Below, in pieces: positions 3,146 through 4,891 of a stretch of DNA of 64,000 bases. Position numbers and translations under genes: made by a program. Source of the stretch: Candidatus Aquabacterium excrementipullorum (GTDB lineage: Bacteria > Pseudomonadota > Gammaproteobacteria > Burkholderiales > Burkholderiaceae_C); the NCBI GenBank assembly GCA_019112875.1, contig DXIO01000082.1, forward strand, positions 62,001 to 126,000. Direction: 5' to 3'. How positions within the stretch are numbered: position 1 is the stretch's first letter; the number at the start of each line of letters is the position of its first letter. Below the pieces are notes generated by a model. It was not told where the DNA came from. It was given only the letters and a program-made list of their open reading frames with translations, and ran no database searches.

Positions 3146-3162
3146 CTGATACAACATATCAG
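3146..3162. promoter_or_regulatory. inverted repeat CTGATA-N5-TATCAG in the lysR/xdhA intergenic region, candidate LysR operator
   Basis: Perfect 6-bp arms read directly (CTGATACAACATATCAG), 10 bp upstream of the lysR start. Confidence 0.5.
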
Positions 3163-3265
3163 GCTGATGCTATACCGAAGCACCCAGGGGGCGATACCCT
3201 CCAAAGGGTGAAGCACCGCGCCCTGAACCGGCCTTTGCTGGAATGACGTTTGCTGGAGTTTCGCC

Positions 3266-4891
3266 ATGAGCGCCCCCACTCCCCTGCCCCCCACCGACAT
3301 CCCTGCCCGCCCCGTGCGCTTCATGCACCAGGGTGAACTGAAATCCGTCAACCATTTGCCGCCCACCACCACGGTGCTGCAATGGCTGCGCGAGCACGCC
3401 CACTGCACCGGCACCAAGGAAGGCTGCGCCGAAGGCGACTGTGGTGCCTGCACCGTGGTGCTGGGCCAGGCCGATGCCAGCGCACCCGGTGGCGTCGCCC
3501 TGAAGAGCGTCAACGCCTGCATCCAGTTCCTGCCCACGCTGGATGGCCAGGCGCTGTTCACCGTGGAAGACGTGGCGGCCACCAACGGGGGCCAGGCGCA
3601 CCCCTGCCAGCAGGCCTTGGTGGACTGCCATGGCTCGCAATGCGGCTTCTGCACGCCGGGCTTCGTGATGTCGCTGTGGAACCTGTACCAGCACCACGAC
3701 CATGCCGTCTCGCGCGAGGATGCGGCCGATGCGCTCAGCGGCAACCTGTGCCGCTGCACTGGCTACCGCCCCATCCTGGACGCGGCCGAGCAGATGTACA
3801 AACTGCCCCGCGTGGCGCCGGACCTGGCGCCCGTGGCCGAGGCCTTGCGGCGGCTGCAGACCGAGGACGCGGGCACCTTTATTTACGAGGCGCGCGACGC
3901 GGCTGATCCTTCGCGCACCGTGCGCTTCATCGCGCCGCGCACGCTGGACGAACTGGCGCGTTGGCGCGCCACCCTGCCCGAAGCCCGTCTGCTGGCCGGG
4001 GCCACCGACATCGGACTGTGGGTGACCAAGCAGTTCCGCGCCCTGGGCGACATCATCTACCTGGGCCGAGTGGATGAACTGAAATCGATCAAGCCGTGGG
4101 GGCCGGCTGAGGAAGCACCGGGCCGCCCCAAGCTTCCTCACCCCCCTCGGGGGGCGGCGGCACAGCCGCCGGGGGGCACCATTGAATCGCCCGAAGGCCT
4201 GGAGATCAACGCCGGCGCCTCGCTGGAAGAAGCCTGGGGCCTGCTTGCCAAGCATGTGCCCGCCCTGCGCGAGATCTGGTTGCGCTTCGCCTCGCCGCCC
4301 GTGCGCCATGCCGGCACGCTGGGCGGCAACATCGCCAACGGCTCGCCCATCGGCGACAGCGCCCCCGTGCTGCTGGCCATGGGCGCCGAGATCGTGCTGC
4401 GCCATGGCGAGGCCACGCGCACCCTGCACTTGTCCGAGTTCTACCTGGACTACATGAAGAACGCTATGCAACCCGGCGAATTCGTGCAGGCGCTGCGCGT
4501 GCCGCTGCCCGCCGCCGACTCCGCCTTGCGCGCCTACAAGATCAGCAAGCGCCGCGACAGCGACATCTCCGCCGTGTGCGCAGGCCTGTGGCTGCGCCTG
4601 GACGGCGACACCATCGCCGAGGCGCGCCTGGCCTTCGGCGGCATGGCCGCCACCGCGCGCCGTGCCGCGCAGGCCGAAGCCGCCCTGATCGGCCAGCCCT
4701 GGACGGAGGCCACGATGCGCGCCGCCCAGGCCGCGCTGGCCCAGGATTTCACCCCCTTGAGTGACATGCGCGCCACGGCGGCGTATCGTCAGCGTGTGGC
4801 GGCCAACCTGCTGGAACGCTGGTGGCTCGAAACCCGCCCGGCATCGCCTTTGAAGGCCGATGTCATCCAGGTCTGGCCGGCCACGGTCTGA
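3266..4891 (+). CDS. xdhA: xanthine dehydrogenase small subunit (2Fe-2S plus FAD domains)
   Basis: Plant-type ferredoxin cysteines (GCAEGDCGACT), CGFCTPGFVMS, LSGNLCRCTGYRPI, FAD domain LAGATDIGLWVTK and GGNIANGSPIGDS. Contains an atypical Pro/Gly-rich insert (see finding). Confidence 0.95.
   Translation: MSAPTPLPPTDIPARPVRFMHQGELKSVNHLPPTTTVLQWLREHAHCTGTKEGCAEGDCGACTVVLGQADASAPGGVALKSVNACIQFLPTLDGQALFTVEDVAATNGGQAHPCQQALVDCHGSQCGFCTPGFVMSLWNLYQHHDHAVSREDAADALSGNLCRCTGYRPILDAAEQMYKLPRVAPDLAPVAEALRRLQTEDAGTFIYEARDAADPSRTVRFIAPRTLDELARWRATLPEARLLAGATDIGLWVTKQFRALGDIIYLGRVDELKSIKPWGPAEEAPGRPKLPHPPRGAAAQPPGGTIESPEGLEINAGASLEEAWGLLAKHVPALREIWLRFASPPVRHAGTLGGNIANGSPIGDSAPVLLAMGAEIVLRHGEATRTLHLSEFYLDYMKNAMQPGEFVQALRVPLPAADSALRAYKISKRRDSDISAVCAGLWLRLDGDTIAEARLAFGGMAATARRAAQAEAALIGQPWTEATMRAAQAALAQDFTPLSDMRATAAYRQRVAANLLERWWLETRPASPLKADVIQVWPATV
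4108..4176. repeat. palindromic repeat-like element inserted in frame inside xdhA
   Basis: TGAGGAAGC (4108-4116) pairs with GCTTCCTCA (4132-4140); CCCCCC-TC-GGGGGG at 4141-4154; GGCGGC-ACA-GCCGCC at 4156-4170. About 69 nt, encoding low-complexity AEEAPGRPKLPHPPRGAAAQPPGG. Confidence 0.65.

Follow-up and report, generated by a model that had tools for sequence, protein, structure and literature searches.

In-frame insertion of a palindromic BRE-like repeat into xdhA and into other protein genes of the same bacterial family

How does a GC-rich palindrome come to lie inside the reading frame of an enzyme gene? The question is raised by xdhA in the window, i.e., the whole 64-kb stretch of DNA analysed here. 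A first-pass annotation had described the palindrome as an element of 69 nt (4108-4176), carried in frame and resembling REP or MITE repeats. Its hairpin arms, the two further hairpins and their in-frame placement agree with both the sequence and the ORF (Table 1). These bounds are slightly narrow: The repeat extends to 4177, and the net gain over the empty site is 78 nt. The junctions are ambiguous by a few nt due to an imperfect short direct repeat (GAAGCACCGG / GAATCGCCCG). Our reading, to which we assign a probability of about 0.86, is that a non-autonomous repeat of the BRE (Beta-proteobacterial Repeat Element) family inserted in frame into xdhA and is tolerated there as a loop.

Table 1. 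Features of the xdhA insert and loci with empty-site relatives in genus g86
Feature	Position in window	Strand	Remark
xdhA (xanthine dehydrogenase small subunit, 2Fe-2S and FAD domains)	3266..4891	+	single 541-aa ORF, insert in frame
Net 78-nt (26-aa) gain over empty site	region 4105..4192	+	comparison with L165 (G339) and L164 (G310)
Repeat copy in xdhA	4108-4177	+	palindromic, dispersed family
Hairpin 1, left arm TGAGGAAG plus C of the constant part; read as TGAGGAAGC	4108..4116	+	pairs with 4133-4140
Constant loop/core ACCGGGCCGCCCCAAG; family consensus GCCGGGCCGCCCCAAG	4117..4132	+	shared core of the copies
Hairpin 1, right arm CTTCCTCA; 4132-4140 reads GCTTCCTCA	4133..4140	+	
Hairpin 2, CCCCCC-TC-GGGGGG (CCCCCCTCGGGGGG)	4141..4154	+	conserved among copies
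Hairpin 3, GGCGGC-ACA-GCCGCC (GGCGGCACAGCCGCC)	4156..4170	+	differs between copies
3' end motif of the repeat, GGGGGGC	4171..4177	+	
Predicted loop peptide in XdhA: LPHPPRGAAAQPPGG region			
Empty-site loci of g86: two sugar ABC ATPases, RecJ, RecG, biotin carboxylase, acyl-CoA dehydrogenase			alignment gaps of 84 or 87 nt

Taken by itself, the palindrome is within chance for such GC-rich DNA. Its fold z-score is -0.94, and the window contains 30 inverted repeats of at least 9 bp compared to 19-37 in simulations. It becomes significant because copies are present elsewhere and relatives carry empty sites. The closest XdhA relatives, from G339 and G310, are 94% and 88-91% identical to the window XdhA. 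At the insert site they read IKPWGPADAPEGLEI and INPWGPPEAPQGLEI, respectively, and the window XdhA reads IKPWGPAEEAPGRPKLPHPPRGAAAQPPGGTIESPEGLEI. Since both carry the empty site, the window gene has gained 26 aa (78 nt) in frame. XdhA is present in 37 of 42 congeneric genomes, and the insert was found in none of 29 other congeneric loci, comprising the two closest and 27 further ones. The alignment to most other genera is interrupted precisely at the insert. The Rhodobacter capsulatus XdhA (PDB relatives 2w3r/1jro) has no counterpart of the segment: Query positions 276-306 fall between chain residues 234/235 and 236. An ancestral loop that was lost in the relatives, with a palindromic look as by-product of high GC, would fit the ordinary fold energy and arm length. 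However, its absence from the two closest relatives, the 27 further congeneric loci and the R. capsulatus protein, together with the occurrence of the same sequence at unrelated loci, makes it extremely improbable. The xdhA insertion is real, lineage-specific, in frame and derived from a BRE-like repeat.

The insert site is a turn of varying length among XdhA orthologues, so that, judged by the alignment to solved XdhA structures, the insert is likely a surface loop. The product matches Pfam Fer2_2, FAD_binding_5 and CO_deh_flav_C, the FAD_binding_5 match being split into two stretches at the insert. That the gene is a decaying pseudogene is highly improbable. Although the hrpA copy of the repeat in one genome (G004, see below) coincides with a frameshift, the 541-aa ORF of xdhA is uninterrupted, its Pfam domains are complete, and an intact large-subunit ORF follows just downstream. 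The loop is presumably translated, surface-exposed and near neutral.

The xdhA copy is, as stated in the first-pass annotation, the only one within the 64-kb window, and the adjoining intergenic stretch 3158-3265 has no second copy in the genome. In the whole genome (G000; 4.75 Mb, 147 contigs), pattern and BLAST searches yielded at least 8-9 copies. A lack of further genomic copies or the same insert in distant XdhA proteins had been named as evidence against a mobile repeat; the other XdhA proteins inspected are free of it, and further copies exist. The best match to the xdhA copy shares 87% identity over 70 nt (G000:C115), and several other places match partially. The core GCCGGGCCGCCCCAAG occurs six times exactly in this genome and is mismatched in the window copy and in at least one other; the reversed control gave zero. 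Across the bacterial family, the exact 16-nt core is found in 237 of 301 genomes, with a maximum of 124 in one of them; the reversed-pattern control is almost nil. The repeat is present in plasmid records of Acidovorax, Rhodoferax, Variovorax, Azoarcus and Paraburkholderia. Genome records hold it in Achromobacter veterisilvae and, as tandem copies spaced at 75-77 nt, in Bordetella genomosp. 2. Phage records contained no match, and a literature search with the core sequence retrieved no paper.

Several copies deserve separate mention. In the Rhodoferax antarcticus plasmid NZ_CP019241.1, a copy (L328, 2001-2070) lies inside an annotated Fic family protein. In Azoarcus sp. KH32C, a further match (replicon NC_020548.1) overlaps the annotation of a chemotaxis protein-glutamate methylesterase. 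Four tandem minus-strand cores (~1270-1670 of L142, Bordetella genomosp. 2) are located at the 5' side of a cAMP phosphodiesterase-like ORF; from its long start, this ORF runs through the repeats, and its start annotation may be wrong. A subfamily at L269, L278, L283 and L063, from different genera, has the left arm CGCCGCAGC or a similar one, CAAGGC on the right side and imperfect pairing, in contrast to copies with perfect arms. It is possibly the ancestral form. The repeat is also found in intergenic regions, at times at convergent gene ends. In genus g79 (L247-L262), many copies apparently lie between converging genes, within a few bases of the stop codons; such a position would be suitable for a bidirectional terminator. 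Intergenic before/after pairs of this genus are heavily diverged.

Is xdhA an isolated case? In the window's genome, further in-frame copies reside in metG and hemW. For metG, empty relatives from G339, G304, G305 and G160 were aligned, and the insertion is common to G310 and G034. Its distribution (L008, L190, L079, L189) is uneven: The insertion is present in G000, G310 and the more distant G034 and missing from G339, whose XdhA is nearer to that of G000. It may have been lost precisely, exchanged by recombination or acquired more than once at the same site. In hrpA, several genera have a 28-aa insert (35 aa in place of 7), most others a 7-aa turn, and the insert is eroding in some. In the complete genome G004 (C1:1311718-1311733; L068 ~1500), the hrpA frame shifts inside the repeat, either because the gene is broken or because the G-run was misread in sequencing. 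Genus g86 provides empty-site relatives for six coding loci (Table 1); the best-matching relatives are 85-89% identical. L278, the seventh copy, lies at the end of a gene. Genes that Pfam did not match were named from their translations. Where Pfam domains were assigned, the insert lies within single domains, namely FAD_binding_5, Radical_SAM, ABC_tran and 2OG-Fe_Oxy_2. In addition, tandem units remain in frame: An RND-transporter-like ORF contains units of 84 nt (28 codons), an SNF2-like helicase ORF units of 87 nt.

The sequence of the repeat itself favours such events. All six frames are stop-free in 65 of 110 copies and at least four in 107 of 110, so that read-through is the default if the length is a multiple of three. 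As the loci were picked as open ORFs, these examples give no rate of gene breakage. The claim that a repeat family in this genome can insert in frame into an enzyme is borne out by the empty XdhA sites and by the other genes with the same event. Judged from these alignments, in-frame insertion by the repeat is general, with ~26-29 aa added per event.

A second property of the repeat concerns hairpin 1. In 70 of 117 distinct copies, the arms flanking the core are complementary over at least 6 bp in a fixed register; with shuffled right arms, the mean is 4 and the maximum 10. In an alignment of 72 rows, 84.8% of the stem cells pair compared to 45.4% after shuffling, and the stem covariation is 0.973 versus 0.221 shuffled and at most 0.345 when slid by one column. 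Every stem position changes on both sides, and 15 loop columns are invariant, which is in part due to selection of the rows, some of them having come from the exact-core search; the stem was not selected on. Except for the outermost position, each stem position shows all four Watson-Crick pair types.

Where do the arms come from? The arm TGAGGAA is common to the xdhA and C115 copies of the same genome; the same arms at several loci mean that arms travel with the repeat. In L276, L278 and L279 (among them RecG, the carboxylase and L278), the left arm arrived with the insert. In metG, the four empty alleles shown all contain the left arm ATGTCCTCGCC, and the right arm GCGAGG is confined to occupied alleles; from this comparison, the left arm appears to be older host sequence. 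In the metG orthologue of G034, both arms differ together. Host origin of the left arm is not universal: It holds in metG and largely in L066 and L267, not in L276, L278 and L279. In L267, the empty-site CTTGC is a better fit to the right arm GCGGCAAG than is the left arm now present. The matching arms of metG and their joint difference in another species allow the suggestion, tentative and rather doubtful at present, that the repeat re-writes one arm as reverse complement of adjoining host sequence, thereby adapting the stem to each target. If true, the target itself would act as the template for inserting, or later maintaining, a small mobile element.

Two accounts of the kept pairing are conceivable. 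The hairpin with its invariant loop might be a functional RNA or DNA structure, such as a terminator, an mRNA stabiliser or a protein site, with pairing kept by selection. The presence of all four pair types at every stem position but the outermost, around an invariant 15-nt stretch, as well as a double change with retained pairing between the orthologous copies L005/L196 (G000/G310), agree with this. By contrast, many copies lie inside coding sequences, where a terminator would be harmful, several hrpA copies and the G310 orthologue L197 show decayed pairing, and no Rfam family is matched (the sole match in the scan, to a snoRNA, is far below threshold and elsewhere in a locus). Selection is possible, but not favoured. 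Template switching can make perfect hairpins and repair arms (PMC8794818), and hairpin-templated correction is the most economical account.

How the repeat moves was approached from its flanks and from candidate movers. A first, simpler test found flanking direct repeats not clearly above chance. The gapped test yielded a weak excess (mean score 10.61 versus 9.83, sd 0.20). The clearest example is a direct repeat of ~10 bp at hrpA (CCGGCGCCGG). With regard to MITEs, these direct repeats bear on target-site duplication, for which they give a clear case in hrpA and a weak overall excess. The 15-30 bp terminal inverted repeats of MITEs are absent, the ends being CGCCGGGCC... and ...GGGGGC. If a RAYT (Y1 tyrosine) transposase moved the repeat as a REP, the intragenic copies would be strays of an active REP/RAYT system. 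The richness of the repeat in hairpins, the intergenic copies including those at convergent gene ends, the precedent of intragenic REPs (PMC3733652) and a Y1 transposase-like gene in 112 of 151 sampled family genomes would all suit this. However, the units comprise 75-87 nt instead of 20-40 nt, the invariant part CGCCGGGCCGCCCCAAG contains neither a GTAG nor a CGTC tag, and Y1_Tnp (PF01797) has no match in the window's genome or in G079 with its 27 exact cores, both of which hold copies. A REP/RAYT origin is hence unlikely, and a resident RAYT as mover is unsupported. Family genome G016 has twenty Y1 transposase matches, several near-identical and full-length, others repeatedly split. This looks like an active IS200/IS605-type element unrelated to the repeat.

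Altogether, insertion of a BRE-family repeat explains the xdhA locus best. A copy of this non-autonomous, hairpin-rich repeat would have entered xdhA after the split from the closest sampled relatives. It would have survived because its length is a multiple of three, the frame used is free of stops and the site is a length-variable turn of the FAD domain, which may tolerate the Pro/Gly/Ala-rich loop of 26 aa. Template switching might then copy one hairpin arm from the other, including host sequence beside the core as in metG. Membership in a repeat family, empty sites, in-frame insertion in many genes and near-complete openness of six frames are demonstrated.

In-frame gain of repeat-derived protein segments is best known from Rickettsia. 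Here, a gene-dense bacterial family repeatedly gains segments of 26-29 aa in core enzymes (RecG, RecJ, MetG, HrpA, a carboxylase, XdhA) from one repeat, whose units of 84/87 nt, stop-free in nearly any frame, are predisposed to in-frame insertion. Since before/after pairs exist, tolerance or use of the segments and complementarity of the arms are directly testable. Furthermore, low-complexity GRPK, PSGGS or GLGRPG segments in such proteins should be annotated as repeat-derived. The xdhA case is a further example of a type of event that is already known. The family-wide extent and the stem-loop behaviour were not found in the literature searched, in which both the near-six-frame openness and the invariant loop on an almost freely varying paired stem appear to be undescribed.

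Other small repeats that enter genes differ from the one studied here. Enterobacterial RU-1, RU-2 and RU-3 are also small mobile ORF-carrying repeats within annotated genes (PMC2759123, 2007), but comprise 103-168 bp, and their author likens them to MITEs. Intragenic GTAG/CGTC REPs are ORF palindromes, too, and affect repair and tRNA synthetase genes, comparable to recG, recJ and metG here; they are, however, tagged units of 20-40 bp, the GTAG type often being near RAYT genes (PMC3733652, 2013). Rickettsia palindromic elements likewise reside in frame in many protein genes, and proteins decorated with RPE-1 are expressed (PMC3733652). As the organism is different, only the insertion mode can be compared: The parallel drawn in the first-pass annotation is apt as analogy, not as kinship, and the sequence fits the beta-proteobacterial BRE family. 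In the available part of their description from 2011, BREs are 75-91 bp long, GC-rich, mostly intergenic and often in tandem, with some copies entirely within coding sequences, and occur in Bordetella, Comamonadaceae and Azoarcus (PMC3110155). The repeat has the same hosts, copies inside coding sequences, net inserts of 78, 84 and 87 nt and tandem periods of 75-77 (Bordetella genomosp. 2) and 84/87 nt (Comamonadaceae). The mean GC content of BREs in Bordetella is 69% (63.7-78.9%) (PMC3110155); that of the repeat is 79% for 110 copies of mixed genera with our own bounds. Variable arms around a constant loop, empty sites and an analysis of the encoded peptides are found here and not in the available part of the BRE description (PMC3110155). 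Judged by this description, i.e., by length, tandem habit, hosts and intragenic copies, the repeat very probably belongs to the BRE family.
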